NCBI GenBank assembly: GCA_944320845.1
Contig: CALUJA010000019.1
Location: forward strand, 1-54,671
Source: an uncultured Phocaeicola sp.
GTDB taxonomy: Bacteria; Bacteroidota; Bacteroidia; Bacteroidales; Bacteroidaceae
DNA: 54,671 nt
Direction of reading: 5' to 3'
A model generated the notes under the pieces. It ran no database searches. It was not told the origin of the DNA and saw only the letters and a program-made list of their open reading frames with translations. The number at the start of each line of letters is the position of its first letter. Positions within the stretch are counted from its first letter, which is position 1. Made by a program: the position numbers and the translations under genes. Below, one piece after another: positions 1-14,369 of this stretch.

Positions 1-1
1 G

Positions 2-45
2 AAAGAGCTAAATATTTGATTTGCAAATACTTAGCTCTTTTTCTT
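2..45 (-). terminator. Terminator-like hairpin after tRNA-Leu
   Basis: A 10-bp perfect inverted repeat (2-11 with 31-40) lies immediately 3' of the tRNA on the minus strand, with further AT pairs inside. The T-rich stretch (38-45) is on the plus strand, so the hairpin may also serve a plus-strand gene to the left of the window. Any U-tract for the minus direction falls outside the window. Confidence 0.55.
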
Positions 46-46
46 G

Positions 47-130
47 TACCCAGACCCGGGGTCGAACCGGGATGGATTTTACTCCACTGGTGTTTGAGAC
101 CAGCGCGTCTACCGATTCCGCCATCTGGGC
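47..130 (-). tRNA. tRNA-Leu (anticodon CAA)
   Basis: On the minus strand the 84-nt sequence folds as a class II tRNA. The acceptor stem GCCCAGA pairs with TCTGGGT (one G-T pair), and the discriminator is A. The anticodon arm CTGGT/ACCAG has the 7-nt loop CTCAAAC, giving anticodon CAA, which reads UUG leucine codons. A long variable arm (TGGA/TCCA) and the T arm with GGTTCGACCCC follow. The CCA end is not encoded: the next bases read CAAG. A good promoter lies just upstream. Confidence 0.95.
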
Positions 131-152
131 AATTGTTTTTCCATTGCGGATG

Positions 153-184
153 CAAAGGTAAATCGTTTTTTTGAAACCTGCAAA
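153..184 (-). promoter_or_regulatory. Promoter of tRNA-Leu
   Basis: On the minus strand, TTTG (184-181), a 20-bp spacer and TACCTTTG (160-153) match the Bacteroidetes sigma-ABfr consensus (TTTG, 19-21 bp, TAnnTTTG). The predicted start is about 15-20 bp before the mature tRNA. Confidence 0.8.
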
Positions 185-311
185 TTTTCCGCCGTTTTTT
201 CTTTATCATTTTATGACAATCGCCCCCTATGTCCGGATGCCGTACATAAAAAGGATGATATTGTCAAAGACATGGCATCGACTGCACCAAACGCTCCTTG
301 CGACTAAGGCA

Positions 312-349
312 AACCGTAGCAATGATATAACCCGGTCATTGCTACGGTT
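312..349 (-). terminator. Hairpin after the alpha/beta hydrolase gene
   Basis: A perfect 14-bp inverted repeat (312-325 with 336-349) with a 10-nt loop starts 9 bp after the stop codon of the minus-strand hydrolase gene. The following U-tract is short (TTTG), so it may end transcription inefficiently or mainly protect the mRNA 3' end. Confidence 0.6.
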
Positions 350-357
350 ATGCAAAG

Positions 358-1440
358 TCATTTCAAATATTCAAGGAAGAACTGTTCTATCTTGTCGAAT
401 GGAATTATATCCATGCGGTCGTACAAATCGACATGGGTAGCCCCCGGCACAATCAGCAGCTCTTTGTTGTCTCCCTTCAGCTTCTTGAACGCATCTTCAC
501 TGAAATAACGGGAGTGGGCCTTCTCGCCATGAACCAACAGTACGGCACTGCGAATCTCATCGCTATAAGACAACAGCGGCATGTTGATGAAGGAAAGCGC
601 CGAAGTCTTGTTCCATCCTCCGTTTGAATTGAGCGAACGCTTGTGATAGCCCCGTGATGTCTTGTAATAGGCATGATAATCTTTCACAAACCAGGGAGCA
701 TCGTCGGGCAGCGGGTCGGCCACTCCACCGGCCAATGCGTATGAACCGTTGTTATAGTCCTCCGTACGCTGGGCATTAAGCTGCCTGCGCATCTCATGGC
801 GGGCATCCGCATCCATCGCATCAAAGTAACCGTTTGCGTTCACCCGGCTCATGTCGTACATGGTAGAGGCTACGGTAGCCTTGATACGGGTATCTATCGC
901 CGCCGCATTGACGGCCATGCCACCCCATCCGCAGATGCCAAGAATGCCGATGCGCTCAGGGTCAGCATTCTCACACGTGGAAAGGAAGTCGACAGCCGCA
1001 CAAAAATCTTCCGTATTGATGTCGGGCGAAGCCACATAACGAGGCTCGCCGCCGCTTTCGCCCGTAAAAGAAGGGTCGAATGCAATGGTCAGAAAACCCC
1101 GTTCCGCCAAAGTCTGGGCATACAGACCGGCAGCCTGCTCTTTTACCGCGCCAAACGGGCCGCACACAGCTATCGCCGGAAGCCTGCCGTCCGCATGTTT
1201 GGGCACATACATATCGGCCGCCAAAGTTATGCCATAACGATTGTGGAAAGTAACTTTACGATGGTCCACCTTTTCACTCTTGGGAAATACCTTATCCCAC
1301 TCCTGAGTCAGAATCAAATCCTTGTCCATATTCATATCGGTATTAAGATTACTGTCTTTGCCATTTACTGCAAGAATGTTTCCGGCCGCGCACAGACATA
1401 CCGCCACGGCGCCACATAATTTTTTAAACGAACTCTTCAT
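358..1440 (-). CDS. Secreted alpha/beta hydrolase, YcjY/dienelactone-hydrolase-like
   Basis: A 360-aa alpha/beta-hydrolase-fold enzyme. The start at 1440 was chosen because GGAGG sits just upstream and the protein then begins with a clean signal peptide (MKSSFKK, then a hydrophobic run to about residue 24); the ORF is open a little further upstream. The nucleophile-elbow motif GICGWGG puts a cysteine at residue 170, as in dienelactone hydrolases and E. coli YcjY (GICGSGG), rather than the usual serine. The C-terminal GATHVDLYD gives the catalytic His336, and LVHGEKAHSR is typical of this family. The substrate cannot be deduced. It is probably periplasmic. An AraC-type regulator lies immediately upstream on the same strand, about 108 bp away. 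Confidence 0.85.
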   Translation of the reverse strand: MKSSFKKLCGAVAVCLCAAGNILAVNGKDSNLNTDMNMDKDLILTQEWDKVFPKSEKVDHRKVTFHNRYGITLAADMYVPKHADGRLPAIAVCGPFGAVKEQAAGLYAQTLAERGFLTIAFDPSFTGESGGEPRYVASPDINTEDFCAAVDFLSTCENADPERIGILGICGWGGMAVNAAAIDTRIKATVASTMYDMSRVNANGYFDAMDADARHEMRRQLNAQRTEDYNNGSYALAGGVADPLPDDAPWFVKDYHAYYKTSRGYHKRSLNSNGGWNKTSALSFINMPLLSYSDEIRSAVLLVHGEKAHSRYFSEDAFKKLKGDNKELLIVPGATHVDLYDRMDIIPFDKIEQFFLEYLK

Positions 1441-1473
1441 ATAGCCTCCTGTATCATCCGGTTTTCTACCAGA

Positions 1474-1481
1474 CAAAAGTA
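1474..1481 (-). promoter_or_regulatory. Candidate -7 element for the hydrolase gene
   Basis: TACTTTTG on the minus strand matches TAnnTTTG, 34 bp upstream of the chosen start codon. I see no convincing -33 TTTG at the right spacing. Confidence 0.45.
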
Positions 1482-1548
1482 GCGCAAAAAGGCGGGAAAA
1501 TCATTGCTGTAAAGCTCAAAAAACATTTCTGACAAGGTCAAGGCAACC

Positions 1549-2394
1549 TTAAACCGAGACAGCCGTAGGGGGAATGCCGTATTGCTTCTTAAAGGCCGTC
1601 GAGAAATGGGACGGATTCTTGAAGCCCACCTCCGCGTAGACATCCGCTATTTTCCTTCCCCCCTCCTTCATCAGCGCATAAGCCACCTCAAGCCGCTTGC
1701 GAATCAGCCACTTTTCAGGAGTAAGGTCGCTCACCTTACGGAAATCCCGCTTGAAAGTAGCCAGACTTCGCCCTGTGTAATGCGCCAGTTCCTCCTGTGA
1801 AAATTCATACATATAGTTTTTGTTCAGGAAATCCAGAATATCAATCTTCCACGGCTCGCTGAAGTCAAACAGCGTGGGAACAAACCGTTTGTCGATATGG
1901 AACAAGGCCAGCAGACCTTCCTGCAGCTTCAAATCCATGAAATCGTCCATCGGCTTCACATTCTGGTCGAAATAAGGTATCATCGATGCAAAGAGACTGG
2001 TTATTTCTGCCGTCTTCGGCAACTTGATTACCCCGCCATCCAGCTTGGGAGTCTGGGGAGGAATCTTGTTTTTCCCTATTTTTGCATACATTTCCCGCAG
2101 GAAACTGCGGGTAAAGTTCAGGAAAATGCCGCAATAGCGCTCCCCGTCACAAGGCTTCTTATAGAGAGTGATGTGGTGGTCACGGGGGATGAACACACAT
2201 TCCCCCTTGCCTACGTGAATCTGCTCTTTCCCGTTGTCGAGCAGCATCTCACCCGAATACACATAATTCATGGCAAACTCACGCGAGCGATGGACGCATC
2301 CGCTCACATCGTCATAGATAAAGCTGAAAAACACATCGTTGTAATTAAAAATCACCTTCAATGGATTCCGGACACCGTTTTCATCTCTTTTCAT
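1549..2394 (-). CDS. AraC-family transcriptional regulator
   Basis: A 281-aa regulator. The N-terminal half (about residues 15-150) looks like a cupin-type sensing domain, with the short stretch GKGECVFIPRDHH. The C-terminal ~100 residues carry the two-helix-turn-helix AraC domain, with EFSQEELAHYTGRSLATFKR as the first HTH and IADVYAEVGFKNPSHFSTAF as the second. The ORF is open up to 2613, but the extra 73 residues are not AraC-like and overlap a predicted RNA and its terminator, so the ATG at 2394 is preferred. That start is 35 bp from a TACCTTTG -7 element. It probably controls the adjacent hydrolase gene or itself. The effector is unknown. Confidence 0.9.
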   Translation of the reverse strand: MKRDENGVRNPLKVIFNYNDVFFSFIYDDVSGCVHRSREFAMNYVYSGEMLLDNGKEQIHVGKGECVFIPRDHHITLYKKPCDGERYCGIFLNFTRSFLREMYAKIGKNKIPPQTPKLDGGVIKLPKTAEITSLFASMIPYFDQNVKPMDDFMDLKLQEGLLALFHIDKRFVPTLFDFSEPWKIDILDFLNKNYMYEFSQEELAHYTGRSLATFKRDFRKVSDLTPEKWLIRKRLEVAYALMKEGGRKIADVYAEVGFKNPSHFSTAFKKQYGIPPTAVSV

Positions 2395-2428
2395 GGAAAC
2401 ATTTCTTTTACGCGTTAATAGGCATGAG

Positions 2429-2436
2429 CAAAGGTA
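2429..2436 (-). promoter_or_regulatory. -7 element of the AraC-type gene
   Basis: TACCTTTG on the minus strand is a perfect TAnnTTTG. It lies between the small-RNA terminator (2465-2489) and the start codon at 2394, so the regulator has its own promoter downstream of the RNA. Confidence 0.6.
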
Positions 2437-2464
2437 AGAAAAAAGCGGAAAAACAAAAAGGCAT

Positions 2465-2489
2465 AAAAAAAGGAGTACCGCTGTACTCC
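2465..2489 (-). terminator. Intrinsic terminator of the predicted small RNA
   Basis: On the minus strand a perfect 7-bp stem, GGAGTAC/GTACTCC with a 4-nt loop (2489-2483 with 2478-2472), is followed directly by seven T residues (2471-2465). This is a classic rho-independent terminator on the minus strand only. Confidence 0.85.
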
Positions 2490-2528
2490 AACCTTTGTTA
2501 ACCTTAAAATCTAATACTATGAAAAACA
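2465..2528 (-). ncRNA. Predicted small RNA upstream of the ECF sigma gene
   Basis: A self-contained transcription unit of about 64 nt. A full promoter (TTTG at 2564-2561, 19-bp spacer, TATCTTTG at 2541-2534) lies on one side and an intrinsic terminator (stem 2472-2489, T7) on the other, with no worthwhile ORF between. The start near 2528 is inferred from the promoter. The body contains the AT-rich stretch GGTTAACAAAGGTTGG just before the terminator stem. From memory, similar blocks occur between genes in other Bacteroides genomes, which would fit a conserved RNA, but I cannot check this here. It lies between the divergent AraC-type gene and the sigma gene. Confidence 0.6.
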
Positions 2529-2533
2529 CGATG

Positions 2534-2564
2534 CAAAGATACGGACTTTCTGGAAACCTGCAAA
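2534..2564 (-). promoter_or_regulatory. Promoter of the predicted small RNA
   Basis: Minus strand: TTTG (2564-2561), 19 bp, TATCTTTG (2541-2534). Both elements and the spacing match the Bacteroidetes consensus exactly. Confidence 0.7.
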
Positions 2565-2623
2565 TACCCAAGGACAAAAAAGCTGTTTTATAACATAGAT
2601 TAAGGTTTTTCAAAGATATTTGC

Positions 2624-2631
2624 TAACTTTG
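2624..2631 (+). promoter_or_regulatory. -7 element of the ECF sigma gene
   Basis: TAACTTTG on the plus strand fits TAnnTTTG and lies 20 bp before the sigma start codon, leaving a short leader. A -33 TTTG at the normal distance is not evident. Confidence 0.55.
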
Positions 2632-2651
2632 GCTGCATCTAAAGTCAATTT

Positions 2652-3266
2652 ATGGTCAAACAACAAAAGATGGAAATAGCAGAACGGCTGATAGTGGAAC
2701 AGTTGAAGCGCGGAAACGACAATGCCTACAAATATCTTTACCGACACCACTACGCGATGTTATGCCACGTTGCATACGAATTCGTAAAAGACGACTTCAT
2801 GGCTGAAACGCTTGTAGGGGATGTTATCTTCCATCTGTGGGAGATACGCGACTCGCTGGAAATACACACTTCCCTGCGCAGCTATCTGGTGCGTGCCGTG
2901 CGAAACCGCTGCATGGACTATCTGGCCTCGAAAAAAGAAAGAAACGAAGTCGCACTTTCATCGTTAGGAGAAAACGAAAGTGCCCAAGAACACTATATTT
3001 TGTCTGACGAATATCCTTTGGGAACCCTTCTGGAGCGGGAACTGGAAAAGGAAATCCGACAAGCCATCTGCCACCTGCCCGATGTTTGCCGGAAAGTATT
3101 CCTGAAAAGCCGCTTTGAAGGGAAAAAATACGAAGAAATCGCCGTCGAGCTCGCCATATCGGTCAACACCGTGAAATATCACATAAAGACCGCATTGACC
3201 CTGCTGCACAAGGAACTCGACAAATATCTGCTGGGCCTCATCCTGTTATTTTTCATTTTCAGCTAA
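2652..3266 (+). CDS. ECF RNA polymerase sigma-70 factor of PUL1
   Basis: A 204-aa ECF sigma factor. Region 2 (about residues 25-95) includes YLYRHHYAMLCHVAYEFV and the LRSYLVRAVRNRCMDYL helix. Region 4 (about 135-190) has LPDVCRKVFLKSRFEGKKY followed by the helix-turn-helix EEIAVELAISVNTVKYHIKT. The hydrophobic C-terminus (LLGLILLFFIFS) is typical of the Bacteroides expansion family of PUL sigma factors. An ATG six codons further in is a possible alternative start. It lies 64 bp upstream of fecR and is expected to direct RNA polymerase to the susC promoter when FecR releases it. Confidence 0.92.
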   Translation: MVKQQKMEIAERLIVEQLKRGNDNAYKYLYRHHYAMLCHVAYEFVKDDFMAETLVGDVIFHLWEIRDSLEIHTSLRSYLVRAVRNRCMDYLASKKERNEVALSSLGENESAQEHYILSDEYPLGTLLERELEKEIRQAICHLPDVCRKVFLKSRFEGKKYEEIAVELAISVNTVKYHIKTALTLLHKELDKYLLGLILLFFIFS

Positions 3267-3330
3267 AAAAGACACCCCGTCACCTACCCGCCCGAAACAA
3301 ATTATCGTCTATCTTATAGAAGCCTTTATT

Positions 3331-4338
3331 ATGGAAGACAAAAACGCACATATCGACGAACTGATATCCAAACTTCTGGTCCAAGGACTGGACAACAATG
3401 AACGGAAGGAACTGGACGCATGGATGGCGCAATCGGAAGAAAACCGGAAGCATGCCATGCAGCGGCAAGAAATCTGGTTTTCAGCCATCGGAAAGGAAGA
3501 CGAAAAAAGATATGACCAGGCCCAAGCGTTCGAAGCGTTCAAGAAGCGCACCGCAGCACACAGGCAGACCACCAAGATGAAAAATCCGTATTGGAAATCA
3601 GCCTGCAAGTATGCCGCCGCCATAGCTGTCATAGGACTGATATCCTACTTCTCTTACCGCATCGGTGAAACCAACCTGAGACAGGCTTTAACAGAAATAG
3701 AGGTGGAAGCCCCCTTAGGCTCACAGACCAGACTCCGCCTGCCAGACAGCACGCTGGTATTCCTGAATGCCGGGTCACGCATCGTCTATGCACAGAATTT
3801 CGGAGTGGACAAGCGGGAAGTCAGGCTGTCGGGCGAAGGGTATTTCGAAGTAACCCACAACGCGGAAAAGCCTTTCATGGTAACTTCAAAAGACCTTCAG
3901 GTAAGAGTTCTGGGAACGAAATTCAATATCTGCGATTATCCGGAAGACAGCAAGGCTGTGGTGTCACTAATAGAAGGAAAAGTAGCCTTGGACAACCGGA
4001 TTCAGAAAGAAACCGAAATGATACTCCTTCCTAATGAACAAATGACATTGAACAAGGAAGAAAGGCGGATGAAAAAGGAAATCAAGACAGCCTCGGACGC
4101 AAAGAAATGGACAACCGGACAGCTGTTTTTCGACGAGACTCCACTCATCGAAGTGGCCAAGACACTGGAAAGAAGCTATAATACGCAAATAAACTTCGGC
4201 AATGAATCTTTGAAAGAATGCCTTTTCTGCGGCAGCTTCAACCGCACCGAACAAAACATAAAAGACATTCTCGAAGCATTAAGAAAAACCGGAAAGATTC
4301 ATTACACGATAGACAATAAAAACATAACTTTGTATTAA
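3331..4338 (+). CDS. FecR-family anti-sigma factor
   Basis: A 335-aa inner-membrane anti-sigma factor. A cytoplasmic N-terminal region (1-85) would hold the sigma factor. One membrane segment follows (about 90-108, AAAIAVIGLISYFSYRI). The periplasmic FecR domain (about 120-215) includes EVEAPLGSQTRLRLPDSTLVFLNAGS-type sequence with GEGYFEVTHNAEKPFMV and VLGTKFNI. The C-terminal part (about 265-335) resembles the DUF4974 domain (FDETPLIEVAKTLERSYNTQI). By family knowledge it receives the signal from the STN domain of the SusC transducer encoded just downstream and controls the upstream ECF sigma factor. Confidence 0.92.
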   Translation: MEDKNAHIDELISKLLVQGLDNNERKELDAWMAQSEENRKHAMQRQEIWFSAIGKEDEKRYDQAQAFEAFKKRTAAHRQTTKMKNPYWKSACKYAAAIAVIGLISYFSYRIGETNLRQALTEIEVEAPLGSQTRLRLPDSTLVFLNAGSRIVYAQNFGVDKREVRLSGEGYFEVTHNAEKPFMVTSKDLQVRVLGTKFNICDYPEDSKAVVSLIEGKVALDNRIQKETEMILLPNEQMTLNKEERRMKKEIKTASDAKKWTTGQLFFDETPLIEVAKTLERSYNTQINFGNESLKECLFCGSFNRTEQNIKDILEALRKTGKIHYTIDNKNITLY

Positions 4339-4403
4339 CCCTATGTTAAACACTTCAAACCCTTAAACCAATGGAAAGAGAAATGTAACCGTCAGGAGAA
4401 GGT

Positions 4404-4439
4404 AAAATAAAAATGCCGGAAGAAGGGCGAGTTCTTCCG
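4404..4439 (-). terminator. Intrinsic terminator of the predicted antisense RNA
   Basis: On the minus strand an 8-bp perfect stem (CGGAAGAA/TTCTTCCG, 4439-4432 with 4424-4417, 7-nt loop) is followed by GC and then ATTTTTATTTTA (4414-4403). The plus strand has no T-tract after the hairpin, so it is not the fecR terminator. Confidence 0.75.
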
Positions 4440-4493
4440 ACACACGACCTTAGTTATCTCCTAACAAGTTAAATGCGAGACGTTTGCTAAGGA
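4405..4493 (-). ncRNA. Predicted antisense small RNA between fecR and susC (DonS-like position)
   Basis: A roughly 90-nt minus-strand unit bounded by the -7 element TACTTTTG (4507-4500) and a strong intrinsic terminator (4439-4404). It is complementary to the 5' leader of the plus-strand susC transcript. Bacteroides PULs with an ECF sigma/anti-sigma pair are known to carry cis-encoded antisense RNAs near susC that repress the locus (DonS of B. fragilis is the described example). The position and orientation here fit that model. No sequence comparison could be made, the -33 element is poor and the 5' end is inferred. Confidence 0.6.
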
Positions 4494-4499
4494 ATGGGA

Positions 4500-4507
4500 C
4501 AAAAGTA
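4500..4507 (-). promoter_or_regulatory. -7 element of the antisense RNA
   Basis: TACTTTTG on the minus strand fits TAnnTTTG. The sequence 18-20 bp upstream (CGTT/GTTC) is a weak -33 match. Confidence 0.5.
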
Positions 4508-4568
4508 CAAAAACATTTCTTTAAGAACGCCTTTTACCCAAAGTTTTTAATCTTAAAATCCCCAATTT

Positions 4569-5891
4569 ATGAATCACAGGAAAAAGGCCATAGCAATGGT
4601 CGGGGCACTCTTATGCCTTAACTTCAGTATATACGGACAAAGTATATCACTGAAAATAAACAATGTATCGGTCAAAAAGGCGATAACCGAACTTCAAGAA
4701 AAGAGCGGCTATTCATTTGTCTACATAGCAGGAGACATCGATACAAACAAGACCGTGTCTGTCGATGCCGACGAGCTGAACGAAGCCATCACGCAAATAC
4801 TGAAAGGACAAAACGTATCCTACGAAATCCAAGACAAAAACATCGTAATCAAAAAAAGGAATGCCCCCTCACAAGCCGCAACCAGCGACAAGAAGCGGAA
4901 AGTATCAGGAACCGTCAAAGACATTAACGGACAGCCGGTAATCGGAGCCAACATCACAGAAAAAGGAACGGCCAACGGAACAATCACAGACTTGGACGGC
5001 AATTACACTTTAGAAGTTTCCGATGACGGCACCTTAGTGGTAAGCTATATCGGCTACAAGACACAAGAAATACCAGCTTCCCAAATAAAAAGAGGACAAC
5101 AGTCCATTACTCTTCGCGAAGATACCGAAATCATGGATGAGGTGGTAGTTATAGGTTACGGTACAATGAAAAGAAAAGACCTTACAGGAGCCATTTCTGT
5201 CATTGACAAAAAAAGTATTGGAGAAATTCCAACCACATCTATTTTGGAAAGCATAAATGGAACCATTCCCGGTATTGAAATCAGTATGAATGGCCGTCCC
5301 GGTGACACTGGATTCGCAACAATTAGAGGTATTAGCAATTTTACAAATAATTCTCCTTTATATGTAATAGACGGATTACCAACAGACAACATCCGAGATT
5401 TTAATGTTAATGATATAGAATCTATCCAAGTTTTAAAAGATGCTTCAGCTGCTGCCATTTATGGATCTCGAGCTGCTAATGGTGTTATTATCATTACAAC
5501 AAAAAAAGGAGAAGAAGGCCCTGTTAAAATCAGCGTTTCAGCATCTTATGCATTACAACATTGGAATCCACCTTTTGAATTTGCAGATGCAGAAGAATGG
5601 TCAAGAATAAATGATGTAGCGAGAGAAAACGCAGGTCTCCCTAAAATGCCTCATGACCTGTCTATAAACACAGATTGGTGGGACGCTATTATTCAAACAG
5701 GAAATATCCAGCAATATAATATTAGTTTATCAGGAGGAAATAAAACTGGGAACTATTATGTATCTGGAGAATATTATAAAAATGAAGGCGTTTTATACGG
5801 CTCCGGATATGAACGGTTTAGCATACGAATCAATACAAACGCAAAAAAAAGGAATCTTCAGCATGGGGCAATCTCTAATACTAAGCAATAA
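4569..5891 (+). CDS. SusC-family TonB-dependent transducer, N-terminal fragment (frameshifted)
   Basis: First half of the PUL1 SusC gene, which is one gene spanning 4569-7833 but read in two frames. It begins with a signal peptide (to about residue 23). An STN signalling domain (about 25-100, SLKINNVSVKKAITELQEK) contacts FecR, and a carboxypeptidase-regulatory-like domain follows (about 115-180). The TonB-box-like segment MDEVVVIGYG is at 189-198, then the plug domain (KDASAAAIYGSRAANGVI) and the first barrel strands. True homology ends near residue 424, at an A8 run; the last 16 or so residues are out of frame and spurious. Up to the TonB box the base composition is like the host (hand-counted lines at 50-55% GC), and beyond it much lower (30-33%). 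Confidence 0.85.
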   Translation: MNHRKKAIAMVGALLCLNFSIYGQSISLKINNVSVKKAITELQEKSGYSFVYIAGDIDTNKTVSVDADELNEAITQILKGQNVSYEIQDKNIVIKKRNAPSQAATSDKKRKVSGTVKDINGQPVIGANITEKGTANGTITDLDGNYTLEVSDDGTLVVSYIGYKTQEIPASQIKRGQQSITLREDTEIMDEVVVIGYGTMKRKDLTGAISVIDKKSIGEIPTTSILESINGTIPGIEISMNGRPGDTGFATIRGISNFTNNSPLYVIDGLPTDNIRDFNVNDIESIQVLKDASAAAIYGSRAANGVIIITTKKGEEGPVKISVSASYALQHWNPPFEFADAEEWSRINDVARENAGLPKMPHDLSINTDWWDAIIQTGNIQQYNISLSGGNKTGNYYVSGEYYKNEGVLYGSGYERFSIRINTNAKKRNLQHGAISNTKQ

Positions 5892-7833
5892 TGTAGTTGA
5901 CCCAACTAGCGCCAATACAATCAGTGATGCGTTAGCTATGGCACCTGTAGTTCCTATTTACGATTCAAACAACCCAGGAGGATATGGATACGGTGATCCC
6001 AACACTAATAATGTAATAGGAGAAAACCCTATTGCACATGAAAATCTAGTAGAAAGAAAAGATAAAAATCTACGAATAAGAGGAACTATATGGGGAGAAT
6101 TAGCCATCCTAAAAAATTTGAAATACAGATTAAATTTAGGATATGAACTTAATTTTGATCAATCAAAAACACTACGAAAAGAAGGCAACTGGCGCATGAA
6201 TATGGCACATGAATCCTCCTATGTTGATGAATACTCCGGGAGATTAGATAAACCACTAATAGAAAACACTTTGACCTTTGATGACAAATTTGGGAAACAT
6301 GCATTAAACGTAATGATTGGAACATCCTATACCAAAGAAACTTATAATAGAATTTCAGGTAAAATCCAAGATATCTTGCAAACATCGGAAGGTAAATACT
6401 ATGATGTACTAGATGCAGGAAGCACCTTGCCTAAAGTCGGAGGCTACCGAAATATTGGAGCCCTACTATCTTATTTAGGGCGAATAAATTATTCATATGA
6501 TGATAAATATATACTAACAGCAACCTACCGACGTGATGGCTCCTCAAGAGTAAAAAAAGAAAACAGATGGGGTAATTTCCCTTCCGTTTCTGCTGCATGG
6601 AGAATCAGCAAAGAAAAATTTATGAGTTCTCTGAACTGGTTAGATGATTTAAAACTCCGTACAAGCTACGGAACATTAGGTAGTCTTAATATCGGTTATT
6701 GGGACTATATTCCTACCATCAATACTTTTCTTGCTGCAACATTTGGGACAGACCAGCTTCAACAAAATGCAGCGACTCAAACCAATCTTGTGAATGAAAA
6801 TCTAAAATGGGAATCACAAACCCAATTAGATTTCGGATTTGACGCAATCTCTCTAAATAATCGTTTAACGATTTCTGCCGATTATTACATTTCAAAGACA
6901 AAAGATGTTCTTACAGCTATGCCTATTCTTTTGACTGCAGGAAACGGAGCAGGCAATCCTGTTGTCAATGCTGCATCTATCGAAAATCATGGATTTGAAT
7001 TGAATATCGGCTGGAAAGAGCAACGTAAAGATTTCACATATTTTGCAAACCTAAATTTATCCACAGTTAAAAACAAAGTTACTAGTTTAGGATATGGCCG
7101 TAATGAAATCATCTCTGGACAAGCACGAACTGCTGTAGGTAGACCAATTGGAGAATTCTATCTTATAAAAGCTGATGGAATATTTCAAAACGAAAAAGAA
7201 GTGCAAGCCCACAAGAACTCCAAAGGAACTGTAATCCAACCTGATGCAAAACCTGGAGATATCAGATATGTTGATTTTAACGATGATGGTAAAATAACAG
7301 ATGCTGACCGCCAAATTTTAGGTTCACCTCATTCTTTATTCCAAGCAGGACTAAACATTGGACTAGCATGGAAAAATTTCGATCTTAAAATGAATTGGTT
7401 TATGGATATCGGATCTAAAGTTTTTAATGCTACCAAACAATATATGTGGGGAGCTGACGGAGGAGGAAATGGAGATTCCAATTATATGAAAGGATTTGCT
7501 TATTGGACTCCAGAACACCCAACTGATATTCCCAGACCCATTGCCGGGAAAATAGAGAATCGACGTGATAGCGATTATTGGTTGGAAAATGGCAGCTATG
7601 CAAAACTTAAAACAATATCTATTGGATACACATTACCTAATAAATTCCTTCACAGAATAATGATTAATACTTGCCGATTATATGTGACTTGCCAAAATGT
7701 ATTTACCATATCTAAATTCAGCATGCAAGATCCAGAATACAGAAAAGACAATATTTGGAATAAAGGTTACCGAGGAACATTGGCTTATCCCAATCCTTTT
7801 GCCATAAATTTTGGAATCCAATTAGAATTTTAA
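5758..7833 (+). CDS. SusC-family outer-membrane transporter, C-terminal barrel fragment (frameshifted)
   Basis: Second half of the PUL1 SusC gene. The open frame starts at 5758, but sequence resembling SusC begins only at about 5851 (GIFSMGQSLILSNNV), directly continuing the upstream fragment if one A is removed from the A8 run. The remainder is the 22-strand TonB-dependent barrel and ends in the aromatic F typical of outer-membrane barrels (INFGIQLEF). The joined protein would be 1087 aa, a normal SusC length. It lies 11 bp upstream of susD. The DNA is AT-rich like the following two genes. If the frameshift is real and fixed, PUL1 cannot import its glycan; if it is a sequencing slip or a switch, the gene is intact. 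Confidence 0.8.
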   Translation: MYLENIIKMKAFYTAPDMNGLAYESIQTQKKGIFSMGQSLILSNNVVDPTSANTISDALAMAPVVPIYDSNNPGGYGYGDPNTNNVIGENPIAHENLVERKDKNLRIRGTIWGELAILKNLKYRLNLGYELNFDQSKTLRKEGNWRMNMAHESSYVDEYSGRLDKPLIENTLTFDDKFGKHALNVMIGTSYTKETYNRISGKIQDILQTSEGKYYDVLDAGSTLPKVGGYRNIGALLSYLGRINYSYDDKYILTATYRRDGSSRVKKENRWGNFPSVSAAWRISKEKFMSSLNWLDDLKLRTSYGTLGSLNIGYWDYIPTINTFLAATFGTDQLQQNAATQTNLVNENLKWESQTQLDFGFDAISLNNRLTISADYYISKTKDVLTAMPILLTAGNGAGNPVVNAASIENHGFELNIGWKEQRKDFTYFANLNLSTVKNKVTSLGYGRNEIISGQARTAVGRPIGEFYLIKADGIFQNEKEVQAHKNSKGTVIQPDAKPGDIRYVDFNDDGKITDADRQILGSPHSLFQAGLNIGLAWKNFDLKMNWFMDIGSKVFNATKQYMWGADGGGNGDSNYMKGFAYWTPEHPTDIPRPIAGKIENRRDSDYWLENGSYAKLKTISIGYTLPNKFLHRIMINTCRLYVTCQNVFTISKFSMQDPEYRKDNIWNKGYRGTLAYPNPFAINFGIQLEF
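5843..5850 (+). other. A8 homopolymer at the susC frameshift point
   Basis: Eight consecutive A residues. With seven As the frame reads NAKKGIFSMGQ, as expected for SusC. With eight it leaves the frame and stops at 5891. Total length 4569-7833 is 3265 bp, one more than a multiple of three. Confidence 0.85.
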
Positions 7834-7844
7834 TACTGAATATT

Positions 7845-9398
7845 ATGAAAACAAAAAAAATAATATACACTTGTTGTTTAATTGCATGCAGTTTATGCAA
7901 TCAAGCTTGTAGTGATTTATTGGATATTGACAACCCCAACAAACAAACTACAAATGAGTTTTGGAAAACAGAACAAGATGCACAATTAGGAGTAAATGCT
8001 TGTTATGCTATTTTTTACCGAATAGGATCTTGGCATCGCTATTTACACTGGCGATTTGATTTGCTTTCCGATGAAGGATATAGCATGAGTCCTTTGGTAC
8101 AAACCAGTGACTGGACACGTTTTATTTACGCAGATTATAATCATGACAACAACCAGACCGTAATTTGGAGAGAAGCATATCGAGGAATATTTCGTGCCAA
8201 CCAAGTCTTAACATATGTACCACAAATAGAAATTCAAGATGCCAAGAAAAAAGATGCTTATTTAGGGCAAGCTTATTTTCACCGTGCCTATAATTATTTC
8301 CACTTAGCAATATTGTGGGAAGAAGTGCCTCTAGTTACCAACCTACAAAACCCGGGAGATCAACCCAAACAAGGAACATTAGAGGATGTATGGAATTTAA
8401 TTGAAGACGATTTGTTGCTTGCTATAGATTTACTTCCGGAAGAATGGGAAAGAGAAGAAAAAGGACGCATAACAAAAGGAGCTGCAAAAGCTTTACTAGC
8501 ACGTGCATACATGCAACAACACCGTTGGGAAGATGCCAAAAAACAATTAGACTGGCTCGTCATAGGAGAAGGGAAAAAATATTATGGATTAGTTACAAAC
8601 TATAAAGATAATTTTTCTCACCTTACAGAAAATAACAAAGAATCAGTTTTTGAAATACAATTTAGCGATGCTCTAAACGGAGGTGAAAGTGATGAAAAAG
8701 GAGCAACCAACGGACATCAACGCTCAATAATATTTGGTTTAGCTGGCATTGGATTTCGAGACGGGTTAGCCAGACCTTGGTTGTTAGACCTCTATAAACA
8801 AGAACGTACAAAAGACGGGAAACTAGACCCTCGTTTACGAGTTAGCTTGTTGTACAAAGATTTAGCTACAGATTTTCCTACAGAAGAAACAGGAAAGTTT
8901 TATGGTAAAACATGGGAAGAAGGAGGATGGGGAAATGATGTCTATTATCGTAAATATTCTCGTGACGATTTTCGCACTACAGAAGACCGCCATTCTCAAC
9001 TGAATTTTCGAGTGATTCGTTACGCAGATATTCTACTAATGTATGCTGAATGCCTAAACGAACTTGGAAAAACAACAGATGCCTATACATATGTTGATTT
9101 AGTTAGAGAACGTGCAAATATGAGGCCTCTAAAAGAAGCTTATCCTAATATAGGGAATGACAAACAAAAATTTCGGGAACGTTTACAAACCGAACGAGTT
9201 CTAGAATTAAATGGAGAATGCGTACGCTGGTTTGACATCAAAAGATGGGAATTATACAATACCCCTCAAGGATTAGCTGCACTGAGAGAACGTGATCCCG
9301 ATTATGACAATTTTATAGTTGGCATATCACATCGGCAACCAATACCGAGTAGTGAAATTGTCAATAATCCTAATCTAAAACAACTCGAAGGATATTAA
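7845..9398 (+). CDS. SusD/RagB-family surface glycan-binding lipoprotein (PUL1)
   Basis: A 517-aa SusD-like protein. The N-terminus is a lipoprotein signal (hydrophobic run then SLCNQACSDLLD, with the lipidated Cys near residue 22). Typical SusD sequence follows: TNEFWKTEQDAQLGVNACY, the TPR-like helical scaffold (LGQAYFHRAYNYFHLAILWEEVPLVT), RVIRYADILLMYAECLNELG and the C-terminal RTERVLELNGECVRWFDIKRW-type motif. It forms the lid of the SusC transporter encoded 11 bp upstream. The gene is AT-rich, matching the barrel half of susC and the GH39 gene and unlike the flanking housekeeping genes. Confidence 0.93.
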   Translation: MKTKKIIYTCCLIACSLCNQACSDLLDIDNPNKQTTNEFWKTEQDAQLGVNACYAIFYRIGSWHRYLHWRFDLLSDEGYSMSPLVQTSDWTRFIYADYNHDNNQTVIWREAYRGIFRANQVLTYVPQIEIQDAKKKDAYLGQAYFHRAYNYFHLAILWEEVPLVTNLQNPGDQPKQGTLEDVWNLIEDDLLLAIDLLPEEWEREEKGRITKGAAKALLARAYMQQHRWEDAKKQLDWLVIGEGKKYYGLVTNYKDNFSHLTENNKESVFEIQFSDALNGGESDEKGATNGHQRSIIFGLAGIGFRDGLARPWLLDLYKQERTKDGKLDPRLRVSLLYKDLATDFPTEETGKFYGKTWEEGGWGNDVYYRKYSRDDFRTTEDRHSQLNFRVIRYADILLMYAECLNELGKTTDAYTYVDLVRERANMRPLKEAYPNIGNDKQKFRERLQTERVLELNGECVRWFDIKRWELYNTPQGLAALRERDPDYDNFIVGISHRQPIPSSEIVNNPNLKQLEGY

Positions 9399-9444
9399 TC
9401 TCCAACCCTACCAATTATAATCCAACAATAAAAAATATACAGCT

Positions 9445-11130
9445 ATGAAATCATTTAAAATATTATTTATCATCTTATTAAGTGGATATTACTTATTTAC
9501 ATACGCTCAAAAGGACGATTATACAACCTTTGAAATTGATGTACAAAATAAATTAGAACCAATGAAACCTATATGGGCTTGGTTCGGATACGACGAACCT
9601 AATTACACTTATATGAAAGACGGGAAAAAGCTATTGACTGAACTTTCAGAATTAAGTTATGTCCCAATTAACGTACGAGTACATAACCTTCTTACTACAG
9701 GAGACGGAACGCCTGCTTTAAAATGGGGATCAACCAATGCATATAGAGAAGACAATGCAGGAAATCCTATTTATGACTGGACTATTGTTGATAGTATCTT
9801 TGATACATACATCAATCGAGGCATGAAGCCTCTAGTCGAAATAGGTTTTATGCCCAAAGCCCTCTCCATAAAGCCAGAGCCATATCAACACAATTGGACT
9901 CCATCTAGCAACTATAATGATATTTATACAGGATGGGCATACCCCCCAAAAGATTATAACAAATGGAGAGAATTAATTTACCAATGGGCTAAACATTGCA
10001 TCGAACGCTATGGAAAAGAAGAAGTCAAGACTTGGTATTGGGAGGTTTGGAACGAGCCTAATATCGGCTATTGGCAAGGAAGTCACGAAGAATATTGCAA
10101 ACTTTACGATTACGCTGCAGATGGACTTAAAAAAGCTTTGCCAGAAGCAAAAATTGGCGGTCCAGAAACAACAGACCCTAGTGGTAAAAATGCAAGCGAC
10201 TATTTACGACTTTTTCTTGAACACTGCATACGTGGGAAAAATTATGCAACTGGAGAGATTGGTTCTCCATTAGATTTCATTACCTTCCATGCCAAAGGTG
10301 GTCCACGTGTTATAGACAATCGAGTCCAAATGAATATGGGGAGACAATTACTGAATATATCAAAAGGATTTGAAATTGTTGCTTCATTTCCTGAGCTTAG
10401 GCACTTACCCATTATTATAGGAGAATCTGATCCTGAGGGATGTGCCGCCTGTTCTATAGAACACCACCCACAAAACGCCTATAGAAATGGAACCATGTAT
10501 TCTAGTTACACGGCAGCTTCGTTTGCACGCAAATATGATCTTGCACGTAAATATGGCGTTAATTTTATAGGAGCAGTCTCTTGGTCTTTTGAGTTTGAAA
10601 ACCAAATGTGGTATGCCGGATTTCGAGATCTAGCAACAAACGGAGTAGACAAACCAGTTCTTAATGTATTCCGTATGTTTGGAATGATGAAAGGAAATTT
10701 AATATCAGTCAAATCATCAAGAAATTTTTCAATTGAAGAGTTATGTCAAAACAGTGTCAGAAAAGAAGCAGATGTCAATGCTCTTGCAAGTTCAGACGAC
10801 CGAAGTATTGCAGTCATGATATGGAATTATCATGATGACGATCTTCCTGCGCCTGATGAAAAAATAAAAATTTCATTCAAAAACATTAAAGCAAAACGTG
10901 TATTAGTACATCATTACAGAATAGATAACAAATACAGCAACTCTTATGAAGTTTGGAAATCAATGGGAAGCCCACAAAATCCATCCAAAGAACAAATTAA
11001 AGAATTAGAACAAAGTGGAAAACTTCAAATGTATACATCTCCAACATGGCACCAACCCAAAGAGAAAAATTTAAATCTGTCTTTTTCATTACCACGTCAA
11101 GGCGTATCACTCGTCACACTAACATGGTAA
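9445..11130 (+). CDS. GH39-family glycoside hydrolase (beta-xylosidase/alpha-L-iduronidase-like)
   Basis: A 561-aa secreted glycosidase with a signal peptide (to about residue 21, ending FTYAQ). The (beta/alpha)8 catalytic domain carries WEVWNEPNIGYWQG with the acid/base Glu204 and IIIGESDPEGCAAC with the nucleophile Glu327. This GH39 pattern indicates a retaining enzyme acting on beta-xylosides or related sugars, including uronic-acid glycosides. Residues from about 440 form a beta-rich accessory region. It lacks a lipobox, so it is probably periplasmic and acts on oligosaccharides imported by the adjacent SusCD pair. It is the only enzyme of PUL1 in this window. Codon use is AT-rich (one sampled 60-base line has 27% GC). 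Confidence 0.88.
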   Translation: MKSFKILFIILLSGYYLFTYAQKDDYTTFEIDVQNKLEPMKPIWAWFGYDEPNYTYMKDGKKLLTELSELSYVPINVRVHNLLTTGDGTPALKWGSTNAYREDNAGNPIYDWTIVDSIFDTYINRGMKPLVEIGFMPKALSIKPEPYQHNWTPSSNYNDIYTGWAYPPKDYNKWRELIYQWAKHCIERYGKEEVKTWYWEVWNEPNIGYWQGSHEEYCKLYDYAADGLKKALPEAKIGGPETTDPSGKNASDYLRLFLEHCIRGKNYATGEIGSPLDFITFHAKGGPRVIDNRVQMNMGRQLLNISKGFEIVASFPELRHLPIIIGESDPEGCAACSIEHHPQNAYRNGTMYSSYTAASFARKYDLARKYGVNFIGAVSWSFEFENQMWYAGFRDLATNGVDKPVLNVFRMFGMMKGNLISVKSSRNFSIEELCQNSVRKEADVNALASSDDRSIAVMIWNYHDDDLPAPDEKIKISFKNIKAKRVLVHHYRIDNKYSNSYEVWKSMGSPQNPSKEQIKELEQSGKLQMYTSPTWHQPKEKNLNLSFSLPRQGVSLVTLTW

Positions 11131-11186
11131 CAATCATGAGAAAAAACGAACAAGACCAAGTTTTTCGCTTGTAGAACAAACGAATT

Positions 11187-11207
11187 AAAAGTTTTGCAAA
11201 CACTTTT
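11187..11207 (+). terminator. Weak terminator-like hairpin after the GH39 gene
   Basis: AAAAGT (11187-11192) pairs with ACTTTT (11202-11207), 57 bp after the stop codon, ending in a short T run. It is short and AT-only, so the assignment is tentative. Confidence 0.3.
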
Positions 11208-11230
11208 CTCAAATTTACTGCCACTGCTCT

Positions 11231-11324
11231 CACCACCCCGCATAACTTGCTATCAGCAAGCTGGTTATAGGGTGGTGGTAGCAAACAGTTCTTAGAAAGG
11301 TAACCAACCTTGCTACCACCACCC
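11231..11324. repeat. Two overlapping, mutually exclusive inverted repeats
   Basis: Hairpin 1 pairs CACCACCC (11231-11238) with GGGTGGTG (11270-11277), with inner stems ATAAC/GTTAT (11242-11246, 11264-11268) and TTGCT/AGCAA (11247-11251, 11255-11259). Hairpin 2 pairs 11270-11284 with 11310-11324, a perfect 15-bp stem starting GGGTGGTGG. The segment 11270-11277 takes part in both, so only one can form at a time. The layout suggests a dispersed palindromic repeat or an antiterminator-type switch. Confidence 0.75.
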
Positions 11325-11352
11325 TCATTTCTGTCTGGCAGCTAAAAAGAAG

Positions 11353-11395
11353 CTTTCCTTGCCGGACTGGGGAAAGACGGCAAGAGGTAGGAAAG
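11353..11395. repeat. Third intergenic hairpin
   Basis: CTTTC (11353-11357) pairs with GAAAG (11391-11395), and CTTGCCG (11358-11364) with CGGCAAG (11378-11384), leaving AGGTAG as a bulge. No T-tract follows on either strand, so it is not an obvious terminator. Confidence 0.55.
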
Positions 11396-11570
11396 TTTTC
11401 ATGCAGACCGAATCTCATTCTTGTGTCTGTGAAACAAAATTTTGTCCGAATCAATGAGGAGGAAGCATCCTGTCCGCATCCTTTACAGCCTGATGAAAAG
11501 TCCTTCCGCCCTATTTCTTGCACACCTTCTATAAAATTGTGCAAAGAAAATACATTTATTTGCCTGAATA

Positions 11571-11602
11571 TTTGGTTAAGACAAGAAATATTTATTCCTT
11601 TG
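11571..11602 (+). promoter_or_regulatory. Promoter of the acpP-fabF-rnc operon
   Basis: TTTG (11571-11574), a 20-bp spacer and TTCCTTTG (11595-11602) fit the Bacteroidetes consensus except for one base of the -7 element. The predicted start is about 45 nt before the acpP ATG. Confidence 0.7.
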
Positions 11603-11654
11603 CACCGAAAAAATCAATAAATTATCTTATTTATAAACTTAAAAAATTAGAATT

Positions 11655-11891
11655 ATGTCTGAAATCGCATCAAAAGTACAGAAAATTATCGTTGATAAAT
11701 TGGGCGTAGAAGAATCAGAAGTAGTGCCTACTGCAAGCTTTACTAACGACCTGGGCGCAGATTCTCTGGACACTGTAGAATTGATCATGGAATTTGAAAA
11801 AGAATTCGGTATCTCTATTCCTGACGATCAGGCAGAAAAAATCCAAACTGTAGGAGATGCCATCTCTTACATCGAAGCTAACGCAAAATAA
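11655..11891 (+). CDS. acpP: Acyl carrier protein
   Basis: A 78-aa acidic helical protein of standard ACP length. The 4'-phosphopantetheine attachment site is Ser37 in [19 protein letters not shown]. It carries growing acyl chains in type II fatty-acid synthesis in the cytoplasm. It is the first gene after a consensus promoter and is followed 14 bp later by fabF, the usual Bacteroidetes order. Codon use is strongly biased, as expected for an abundant protein. Confidence 0.98.
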
Positions 11892-11905
11892 GTTAATTCT
11901 AAACT

Positions 11906-13171
11906 ATGGAATTAAAAAGAGTGGTAGTAACAGGTCTTGGCGCGCTGACTCCGGTAGGCAATACGGTTCCCGAATTCTGGAACAACCTTATAAACGGAGT
12001 GAGTGGGGCAGGACCTATTACTCATTTTGACGCATCAAAGTTCAAGAGCCAGTTTGCCTGCGAGGTGAAGAACTTCAATGTGAACGATTTCATCGACCGC
12101 AAGGAAGCGCGCAAGATGGATCTTTACACGCAGTATGCCATCGTTGCAGCAAAAGAGGCCGTAGCCGATGCGAACATCGACGTTGAAAAAGAAGATTTAA
12201 ATAAGATTGGAGTCATCTATGGCGTAGGTATAGGCGGACTTCATACATTCGAGGAAGAAGTGTTGAACTATGCGCAGACCAAAGACACCATCGGACCGCG
12301 CTTCAGTCCTTTCTTCATCCCGAAAATGATTGCCGACATTGCAGCAGGCCATATCTCTATGATTTATGGTTTTCACGGACCTAACTTTACGACCACTTCA
12401 GCGTGTGCCTCTTCATCGAATGCCATCGGCGAAGCGTTCAACCTGATTCGTCTGGGAAAAGCCAACATCATACTGGCCGGAGGTGCTGAAGCCACTATCT
12501 ATCCTGCCGGTGTAGGCGGATTCAACTCAATGAACGCACTGTCTACCCGCAACGACGACCCGACTCACGCATCACGTCCTTTCAGTGCAAGCCGCGACGG
12601 TTTCGTTATGGGAGAAGGTTCCGGATGTCTGATTCTGGAAGAACTGGAGCATGCCAAAGCACGCGGTGCCAAGATTTATGCTGAAATTGCCGGAACCGGT
12701 GCCTCTGCCGACGCTTACCACATAACAGCTTCTCATCCGGAAGGTTTAGGAGCCAAGCTGGTCATGTCGAACGCACTGGAAGATGCCGGAATGAAACCGG
12801 AAGACATCGACTATATTAACGTACATGGTACATCAACGCCTGTAGGCGACATTTCAGAAGTCAAGGCCATCCAAGCCCTTTTCGGAGACTATGCCTATCA
12901 GGTAAACATCAGTTCCACCAAATCGATGACGGGACACCTTTTGGGTGCTGCCGGAGCAGTGGAAGCCATCGCCTGCGTATTGTCTGTTAAGAATGACATT
13001 GTACCTCCGACCATCAACCATGAGGAAGGAGACAACGATGAACACATCGACTACAACCTGAACTTCACGTTCAACAAGGCGCAGCAGCGTACAATCCGTG
13101 CCGCACTGAGCAACACATTCGGTTTTGGAGGTCACAATGCATGTGTAATCGTAAAAAAATACGCAGAATAA
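11906..13171 (+). CDS. fabF: 3-oxoacyl-ACP synthase II (KAS II)
   Basis: A 421-aa condensing enzyme that elongates acyl-ACP with malonyl-ACP. The start motif VVVTGLGALTPVG, the active-site cysteine Cys167 in TTSACASSSNAIGEA, and the two catalytic histidines in VHGTSTPVGD and STKSMTGHLLGAAGA are all present. The C-terminal NTFGFGGHNACVIVKK is typical. The length matches the family. It lies between acpP (14 bp upstream) and rnc (1 bp downstream), so the three genes are almost certainly cotranscribed. Confidence 0.98.
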   Translation: MELKRVVVTGLGALTPVGNTVPEFWNNLINGVSGAGPITHFDASKFKSQFACEVKNFNVNDFIDRKEARKMDLYTQYAIVAAKEAVADANIDVEKEDLNKIGVIYGVGIGGLHTFEEEVLNYAQTKDTIGPRFSPFFIPKMIADIAAGHISMIYGFHGPNFTTTSACASSSNAIGEAFNLIRLGKANIILAGGAEATIYPAGVGGFNSMNALSTRNDDPTHASRPFSASRDGFVMGEGSGCLILEELEHAKARGAKIYAEIAGTGASADAYHITASHPEGLGAKLVMSNALEDAGMKPEDIDYINVHGTSTPVGDISEVKAIQALFGDYAYQVNISSTKSMTGHLLGAAGAVEAIACVLSVKNDIVPPTINHEEGDNDEHIDYNLNFTFNKAQQRTIRAALSNTFGFGGHNACVIVKKYAE

Positions 13172-13172
13172 C

Positions 13173-14165
13173 GTGTTAGACAATATAACAGATAAGATAA
13201 GACTCTTTTTCCGCAAGGACAAGGAGCCTTATCTTTGTTTTTATAGGATATTAGGGTTCTATCCGCGAAATATCGAACTCTACAAGCAAGCCCTGCTTCA
13301 CAAGTCCTCATCCGTAAAGGCAAAAGGGCGTCTGCTGAACAACGAGCGTCTGGAATTTCTTGGCGACGCCATCCTGGATGCCATCGTTGCTGACATCGTA
13401 TACAAACATTTTGAAGGAAAGCGGGAGGGATTCCTGACAAACACCCGCTCGAAAATCGTGCAGCGGGAGACTTTAAACCGCGTGGCTGTGGAAATCGGGC
13501 TGGACAAGCTGATTAAATACACCACCCGCCAGTCTTCACACAACAGCTACATGTGCGGCAACGCATTCGAAGCGCTCATCGGAGCCATCTATCTGGACCG
13601 AGGATACCGGGCATGCAAGAAGTTCATGGAAGAACGCATCATCAACCGATATTTGAATCTGGAAAAAGTATCCCGCAAGGAAGTCAATTTCAAGTCCAAG
13701 CTGATAGAATGGGGACAGAAATACAAGTTTGAGGTAGACTTCAAGCTATTGGACGAATCGTTAGACCAAGAACAGAATCCTACTTTCGAAACGCAAATCA
13801 CCGTTGAAGACATTCCGGCCGGACGAGGCAAAGGCTATTCCAAAAAGGAATCCCAGCAGGAGGCTTCGCACGAAACGCTCGCAATAATAAAGAACGACCC
13901 GCAATTCATCGACGCAATCTATGCAGCCAAGGCGAAACGCGAGCAGCAGGCATCAGACAAAGCGGGACAGGCCATTCCACAACAAGAAGAGGAAGCGGTC
14001 ATTCTTTCGGAACCAGCAGAAGAAAAGACATCCGCCTGTGAGAAAACTGAGTCATTGCAAAATGAAAAATCCGACAGTGATACCGAGCGCATCATTGCGG
14101 AAGCAGAGGAAGCGGCTTTTTTGACAGAAGCAAAAATTCCTAAGGACAATAGCGAAAAAAAATAA
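13173..14165 (+). CDS. rnc: Ribonuclease III
   Basis: A 330-aa double-strand-specific endoribonuclease used in rRNA and mRNA processing. The catalytic domain (about 25-165) holds the signature ERLEFLGDAILDAIV and the second acidic site GNAFEALIGAIYLDRGY. The double-stranded-RNA-binding domain (about 175-250) ends in GRGKGYSKKESQQEASHETL. Some 80 further residues form a low-complexity acidic tail rich in E, A, S and K, which is longer than in enterobacterial RNase III (226 aa). The start is a GTG one base after the fabF stop, implying translational coupling. Confidence 0.95.
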   Translation: MLDNITDKIRLFFRKDKEPYLCFYRILGFYPRNIELYKQALLHKSSSVKAKGRLLNNERLEFLGDAILDAIVADIVYKHFEGKREGFLTNTRSKIVQRETLNRVAVEIGLDKLIKYTTRQSSHNSYMCGNAFEALIGAIYLDRGYRACKKFMEERIINRYLNLEKVSRKEVNFKSKLIEWGQKYKFEVDFKLLDESLDQEQNPTFETQITVEDIPAGRGKGYSKKESQQEASHETLAIIKNDPQFIDAIYAAKAKREQQASDKAGQAIPQQEEEAVILSEPAEEKTSACEKTESLQNEKSDSDTERIIAEAEEAAFLTEAKIPKDNSEKK

Positions 14166-14291
14166 AGTCAGACTATCCCATAACAAGACTTATTCACGAC
14201 GAAAATATCTTTTGTCTCATTACGGAATTTTAAAGAATATTTGCGACATTCTCTGCTGAGCAACATAAAAGTACGGATTTTTATAAAGATT

Positions 14292-14319: not shown

Positions 14320-14369
14320 TAAGAGAAATCAAATGTAACCTATTTTTCTACGATTAATCTGCGCCTTTG

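Follow-up and report, generated by a model that had tools for sequence, protein, structure and literature searches.

A probable DonS-type antisense RNA gene between the anti-sigma and susC genes of a Phocaeicola PUL

PUL-associated antisense RNAs and the window locus

DonS of Bacteroides fragilis belongs to a family of cis-antisense RNAs of 78-128 nt that are divergent to susC homologues and, according to passages of PMC7366714, act negatively on their PULs. The same passages count ten DonS-like RNAs in Bacteroides thetaiotaomicron, five of them visible on Northern blots. Excerpts of PMC10994844 give 32 annotated PUL-associated antisense RNAs for this species, with correlations to the PULs that are negative as well as positive. 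The mechanism of DonS is termed unknown in an excerpt of PMC11697453.

The window, meaning the whole 54,671-nt stretch analyzed here, is contig 19 of a 2.8-Mb Phocaeicola genome (Table 1). According to the original prediction, the minus strand of its fecR-susC gap carries a small but complete transcription unit, and the box, the hairpin, and the T-rich tail are all present at 4507-4404. The box, TACTTTTG at 4507-4500 on the minus strand, fits the sigma-ABfr -7 consensus TAnnTTTG quoted in passages of PMC7366714, and a TTTG at the -33 position is absent from this promoter. The start of the RNA was assumed to lie 7 nt past the -7 box, in the window and in every relative. Box and stem are 56 nt apart, and the predicted 8 perfect pairs (CGGAAGAA/TTCTTCCG) are there, but they form part of a longer stem of 12 pairs (4443-4413, loop of 7 nt) with TTTTTATTTT on its 3' side, and an extra 5' hairpin is predicted that the earlier description did not contain. 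As also claimed, a T-tract behind the hairpin is lacking on the plus strand. The gap holds no plus-strand terminator by the strict scan rules, and no inverted repeats were found within 4300-8000.

Table 1. Features of the antisense unit and its host locus in the window
Feature	Position	Strand	Basis
FopS trans-acting sRNA gene, RF04319	2462..2529	-	Rfam, 76.4 bits
FopS -7 box TATCTTTG	2541-2534	-	sequence
ECF sigma factor gene	2652..3266	+	Pfam Sigma70_r2, Sigma70_r4_2
FecR-type anti-sigma factor gene	3331..4338	+	Pfam FecR, FecR_C
Mini-ORF ATG GAA AGA GAA ATG TAA, presumed susC leader	4371..4388	+	orthologue alignment, class frame test
T-rich tail of terminator	4412-4403	-	sequence
Predicted antisense RNA, about 88-90 nt	4404..4493	-	box and terminator
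Terminator hairpin, 12 pairs, loop 7	4413..4443	-	scan and orthologue pairing
Predicted 5' hairpin, outer stem CCUUAG/CUAAGG	4448..4492	-	prediction; pairing in 7 orthologues
-7 box TACTTTTG of antisense RNA promoter	4500..4507	-	sequence; matches TAnnTTTG
Predicted FopS pairing site TTAATCTTAAAAT, susC translation start region	4547..4559	+	duplex prediction
susC, first open stretch	4569..5891	+	Pfam STN, CarbopepD_reg_2, Plug
susC, second open stretch, other frame	5758..7833	+	Pfam: no hit, E up to 0.001
susD	7845..9398	+	Pfam SusD_RagB
GH39 glycoside hydrolase	9445..11130	+	Pfam Glyco_hydro_39

A lenient terminator scan of positions 1-20000 is not significant alone (23 found, against 20.7 in shuffles with an sd of 5.4). 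Strict scanning of both strands over all 54,671 bases returned 10 terminators, only two of which have a TAnnTTTG box 25-160 nt before them: the antisense unit and the neighboring FopS gene. Taken as 94 nt (4497-4404), the predicted RNA has a better fold than all 200 of its shuffles (z -3.69). An Rfam search of 4250-4650 with E up to 10 gave zero matches, FopS RF04319 included. A DNA search for close copies of the gap in its own genome gave 19 matches, namely the window's own and 18 short hits whose E values were 0.7 or worse.

The unit shares with DonS and the B. thetaiotaomicron RNAs, as excerpts of the sources describe them, its orientation, predicted length, canonical -7 box, Rho-independent terminator, and ECF PUL. 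In a PUL with an ECF sigma/anti-sigma pair, it runs antisense to and divergently from a susC homologue, its predicted 88-90 nt from box to terminator fall within the family range, and a promoter and terminator of its own can be read from the bases, with the -33 TTTG missing. Some of the known RNAs have been seen as transcripts, and DonS is described as repressive; the window unit is a prediction from sequence. Comparison strongly supports a gene for a small minus-strand RNA in the gap that separates the anti-sigma gene from susC. In position, predicted length, and PUL type the unit fits the proposed DonS class; the best reading is that it joins the known PUL-associated (DonS-type) antisense RNAs, a class otherwise from B. 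fragilis and B. thetaiotaomicron.

Like the class, the host locus agrees with the original prediction in part. The unit does lie in an ECF sigma/FecR/susC/susD/GH39 locus, but the GH39 link may be incidental because DNA identity with orthologous loci (98.5% in L032, 87% in L031) breaks off sharply inside susC, at 5165. The break falls 597 nt into the gene, right ahead of the plug domain, and suggests that the barrel of the transporter was exchanged while the regulatory part in front of it was conserved. In the assembly, susC is also split into two overlapping open frames (4569-5891 and 5758-7833), and the orthologues L031, L032, and L033 have a single uninterrupted frame; the split is a frameshift, either in the strain or in the assembly. 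Given the split and the non-matching DNA past 5165, the PUL may be non-functional in this strain whether or not the RNA is produced. Among three named loci, the closest FecR match is in Candidatus Phocaeicola faecipullorum (99%), and the FecR orthologue of Phocaeicola vulgatus ATCC 8482 stands at 52%. An RNase III gene (13173-14165; Pfam Ribonuclease_3 and dsrm) lies 2 kb past the GH39 gene. Its proximity is probably a coincidence, though the enzyme could cut an antisense duplex.

Conservation of the unit and its distance to susC

A DNA search across 61 Phocaeicola genomes matched 11, the window genome included, and 8 sequences counting the window are alignable across the gap. The minus-strand alignment has 7 rows, with G014 omitted as near-identical to the window. 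The two-hairpin structure is paired in 90.3% of its cells, against 37-59% when the partners are slid. Pairing reaches 98.7% in the terminator helix, where 4 pairs have changed on both sides, and 92.9% in the outer stem of the 5' hairpin, which has zero double changes; the inner helix of that hairpin is weak (68.6%). Column shuffles equaled the paired cells in 1 of 500 and the covariation score in 7 of 500. Doubly changed pairs, 4 where the shuffles average 2.0, are mildly in excess (42 of 500 shuffles reach 4), and pair types are not (281 of 500 reach the observed number).

The strand of the RNA can be read from G-U pairs, each of which becomes an A-C mismatch on the plus strand. The terminator helix of the orthologues has 11 such G-U cells against 1 of the reverse, a count that is independent of the terminator finder. 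A symmetric count over the 52 stems of the class described below gives 61 G-U against 5 A-C oppositions, a ratio somewhat biased towards the minus strand by the finder, which allowed up to two G-U pairs and one mismatch. Together with the 52 minus-strand and 0 plus-strand units among 92 long gaps, this asymmetry indicates that the minus strand is the RNA strand. It also contradicts, as does the side on which the T-tract lies, the one sequence outcome named in advance as fatal to the original prediction, a hairpin kept only as a plus-strand element.

The unit was surveyed in 153 of 391 FecR_C matches in the 61 genomes, namely the best-scoring matches listed and 7 from the window genome, with weaker ones outside the sample. 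A SusC-like frame follows in 139 of the 153; the other 14, among them some truncated at contig ends, were excluded. Among the 92 gaps of at least 90 nt, a complete minus-strand unit is present in 52 and a plus-strand unit in 0, and terminators stand on the minus strand in 64 and on the plus strand in 1. By these rules 40 of the 92 lack a complete unit, 12 of them having a minus-strand terminator and no box. Gaps below 90 nt (n=47, two of them from the neighboring FecR matches L029 and L030) have zero units and zero terminators on both strands; these short gaps, together with the rest of the window, served as the test of whether the units are tied to fecR-susC junctions. Shuffling the minus strand of 91 gaps (90-300 nt) 20 times each gave a unit in 0 of 1820 cases. 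Kinship was handled by clustering 138 loci into 96 clusters, of which 33 bear a unit and 30 further ones are long gaps without it.

The unit extends to other genera of the family. From 63 stretches picked from the listed matches, 55 with a SusC, 37 gaps of at least 90 nt were obtained; 9 contain a minus-strand unit and none a plus-strand unit, and minus-strand terminators occur in 18, plus-strand ones in 3. The same type of unit occurs in the matching gap of orthologues and in that of unrelated PULs. In P. vulgatus (L046, L033) the layout is alike and the RNA sequence almost unrelated. RNAalifold likewise found no common structure in 18 class-B (75-nt) RNAs, leaving the layout alone as what different PULs have in common.

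With the SusC start taken as the first ATG of the frame, the units fall at fixed distances from it. Of the 52 units, 25 place the antisense start at exactly 14 nt upstream of this ATG, 22 place it at 74-86 nt (all but one of them within 74-77), and 5 place it elsewhere. The window unit, at 76 nt, is of the second class. The 33 unit-bearing clusters divide into 15, 15, and 3 others, and the nine units outside the genus into 6 at 14 nt, 1 at 76 nt, and others at 1 and 25 nt. Units of the 14-nt class have a -7 box that overlaps the susC start codon. The corresponding plus-strand motif, CAAAnnTATG, marks 30 of 64 susC starts behind gaps of 90-200 nt, 1 of 27 behind those of 200-300 nt, and 0 of 47 behind shorter ones, and so it does not belong to translation starts in general. 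Gaps of 200-300 nt have a box at -58 to -64 in 22 of 27 cases, and both other gap classes lack it. The -33 TTTG is missing from all 15 testable clusters, a result of little weight since shuffles expect just 0.5.

Two loci illustrate the spacing. In the L127 gap, the antisense RNA is preceded by two TATCTTTG boxes in tandem with an 11-nt offset; the susC-proximal box would give the usual 75 nt and the other 86. Two further PULs of the window genome (G000), L026 and L025, carry antisense units, one of each distance class (14 and 74 nt). The exact 11-mer TTAACCTTAAA, compared with its reversed control in three genomes (8 to 2, 20 to 11, and 17 to 13), gives no strong genome-wide signal.

Leader mini-ORF and FopS site

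The presumed susC leader of the window contains a mini-ORF between fecR and the 3' end of the antisense RNA, and its ATG is invariant in the 8-row orthologue alignment. A rule based on a AACCTTAAA-like motif finds a mini-ORF in 26 of the 33 unit-bearing clusters. An in-frame stop within 10 codons follows in 24 of these 26, against 13 and 11 in the other two frames (p 0.003), and the mini-ORF ends before the 3' end of the antisense RNA in 24 of 26. Applied to the 30 long gaps that lack a full unit, the same rule picks out 13, and a stop within 10 codons follows in 10 of them against 5 and 5 in the other frames (p 0.03). A cruder first test was weaker: an ATG in 32 of 33 against an expected 0.62, and a stop within 10 codons in 78% against 53%.

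Small ORFs are familiar in another antisense setting. In the CopA-CopT/tap system, a plasmid antisense RNA lies opposite a leader with a small ORF upstream of the regulated gene. The window likewise has an antisense RNA opposite a leader with a small ORF. However, the mini-ORF of the window class stops before the antisense target in those 24 of 26 clusters, far from susC. The two fixed distances, the start-codon overlap, and the leader mini-ORF are not described in the available passages of PMC7366714, PMC10994844, and PMC11697453. Among the matches listed in the literature on susC leader ORFs and on antisense RNA and RNase III, no title names the two-distance rule, the overlap, or the mini-ORF, and among those listed for uORFs and leader peptides no title concerns a Bacteroides susC leader ORF.

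The trans-acting sRNA FopS is encoded beside the locus. It represses susC mRNAs by pairing near the start codon, according to passages of PMC11697453. FopS was found in 61 of 61 Phocaeicola genomes, with 6 matches in the window genome. It stands about 0.8 kb before fecR in L031 and L032, in the latter before a 204-aa ORF in the sigma position, and 3.8 kb before fecR in L033. Nucleotides 1-42 of FopS are predicted to pair with the 70 nt around the window susC start at -24.2 kcal/mol (z -4.5; 0 of 200 shuffles equal), and pairing with the mini-ORF region is weak (z -1.0; 27 of 200 equal). Median z values at the susC start are -2.2 in the 14-nt class (n=15), -2.5 in the 75-nt class (n=15), -2.7 in long gaps without a unit (n=30), and -0.65 in short gaps (n=33), against +0.19 in fecR coding controls (n=95). 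These medians indicate that FopS pairing tracks long leaders, not the antisense RNA as such.

FopS resembles the predicted antisense RNA in being a short sRNA with a sigma-ABfr promoter and a terminator; it acts against susC mRNAs, as the antisense RNA would, and a copy lies 1.9 kb from the antisense RNA. It differs in acting in trans on the start codon region, whereas the 4404-4493 RNA does not match RF04319 and lies at least 76 nt upstream of the ATG. The 5' part of FopS, read on the opposite strand, resembles a susC start (TTAACCTTAAAATCTAATACTATGAAAAACAC), as if FopS had originated from an antisense of such a region. A FopS-like seed (7 of 9 matches) is present in the first 35 nt of 0 of 15 class-B RNAs. 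It is present in 6 of 15 class-A (14-nt) RNAs, no clear excess over a shuffle mean of 2.9 with values of up to 8, and the idea that class-A RNAs carry such a seed is therefore unsupported.

Proposed function and alternatives

The stretch 4507-4404 is probably, at roughly two chances in three, the minus-strand gene of an about 88-nt DonS-type cis-antisense RNA that represses the susC leader. The unit, its strand, its position, and its conservation rest on comparison, and from them we infer transcription, pairing, repression, and a switch. The housekeeping sigma factor would initiate the antisense RNA at about 4493, and the hairpin at 4443-4413 would terminate it. Its target would be a long leader of the susC mRNA, supplied either by read-through from the sigma/anti-sigma operon or by an ECF-sigma promoter located within the fecR 3' end. 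Without induction, the antisense RNA may pair with sense leaders made by leaky transcription, in the stretch from the mini-ORF to the start of susC, leaving them untranslated and degraded. On induction, the freed ECF sigma factor would drive strong sense transcription and the leader would outnumber the antisense RNA. Sense polymerases crossing the antisense promoter could at the same time cut the antisense supply, producing a threshold switch.

The length of the sense leader is central to this proposal. Read-through from the sigma operon is expected because the gap has no plus-strand terminator by the scan rules. In PUL24 of B. thetaiotaomicron, an ECF sigma/anti-sigma system, 5' RACE placed a susC 5' end 291 nt upstream, within the anti-sigma coding region; this end was seen in an anti-sigma mutant and the band was absent in the wild type (section 9 of PMC11501099). 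The PUL24 start site, as reported there, is a precedent for a sense leader covering the antisense gene, and if the same pattern holds in the window, the susC leader would span the whole gap and be fully complementary to the antisense RNA. The susC gene BT_3983 counts against a long leader: an excerpt of PMC11697453 equates position 72 with -6, so that its leader seems to be about 77 nt, and a leader of that length in the window would hardly overlap the antisense RNA, if at all. Third-position conservation at the 3' end of fecR in 7 orthologues gave nothing clear as a sense promoter signal, and the available part of PMC12596196 contains no promoter motif usable for this locus. Among the papers listed on start sites, none concerns P. 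vulgatus.

An antisense RNA at the gap would silence read-through, which favors RNA pairing, with transcription interference as the main rival. Here, the act of antisense transcription from 4493 to 4404 would itself block or collide with read-through from fecR, insulating susC in lieu of a fecR terminator. Such interference is rather unlikely as the whole explanation, yet it would account for several features of the survey. Of the 92 long gaps just one has a plus-strand terminator, as do 3 of 37 in other genera; the antisense start keeps its distance to the start of susC and not to fecR; and the RNA sequence diverges while the layout stays, both in P. vulgatus and in the class-B RNAs without a common structure. 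On the other hand, the predicted second hairpin is kept in most orthologues, suggesting that the RNA product matters; the 3' hairpin is needed either way. DonS reportedly acts when supplied in trans. The description of DonS as negative on its own PUL, in passages of PMC7366714, also speaks against interference.

The remaining readings are far less probable. Action of the minus-strand RNA in trans on other mRNAs, in the manner of FopS, is very unlikely: the RNA is small and terminated, with a housekeeping-type -7 box and a make-up like that of neighboring FopS, but the FopS-like seed is wanting in class B and in no clear excess in class A, and the sequence varies from PUL to PUL among units that were sought in fecR-susC gaps only. 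It is more improbable still that the promoter is spurious and without function, paired by chance with a terminator. Antisense start sites are common in B. thetaiotaomicron, many with weak transcripts, according to passages of PMC7366714; conservation across genus and family, two fixed distances, and 0 of 1820 shuffles all argue against this origin. Scarcely credible is a hairpin that belongs to the plus-strand leader as an attenuator or processing signal of the fecR-susC mRNA, with the minus-strand features as a by-product. Every hairpin has a hairpin as its complement, and the sense leader has to fold as well, but the T-tract is on the minus strand only, the G-U asymmetry (61 to 5, with some G-U tolerated by the finder, and 11 to 1 in the orthologue helix) favors the opposite strand, and the -7 box sits at two fixed positions in long gaps and in 0 of 47 gaps below 90 nt.

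Beyond a repressing antisense RNA, a composite susC-leader switch can be proposed, if only tentatively and as doubtful. It would combine a housekeeping antisense promoter at one of the two fixed distances, a leader ORF of at most about 10 codons right ahead of the 3' end of the antisense RNA, and the FopS site at the susC start. Translation of the leader ORF, the antisense RNA in cis, and FopS in trans might jointly decide whether read-through RNA of the sigma operon yields SusC, and the front end up to the SusC N-terminal domains might move between cargoes as a single unit. If this were true, the 14-nt class would share bases between a ribosome start site and an antisense promoter. The mini-ORF and the FopS site are predictions testable in laboratory strains. 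The survey yields a sequence rule: a start 14 or about 75 nt from the susC ATG, a terminator about 60 nt past fecR, and a gap of at least 90 nt. This rule should aid in calling PUL-associated antisense RNAs in further Bacteroidaceae genomes, and it indicates the exact bases to mutate.
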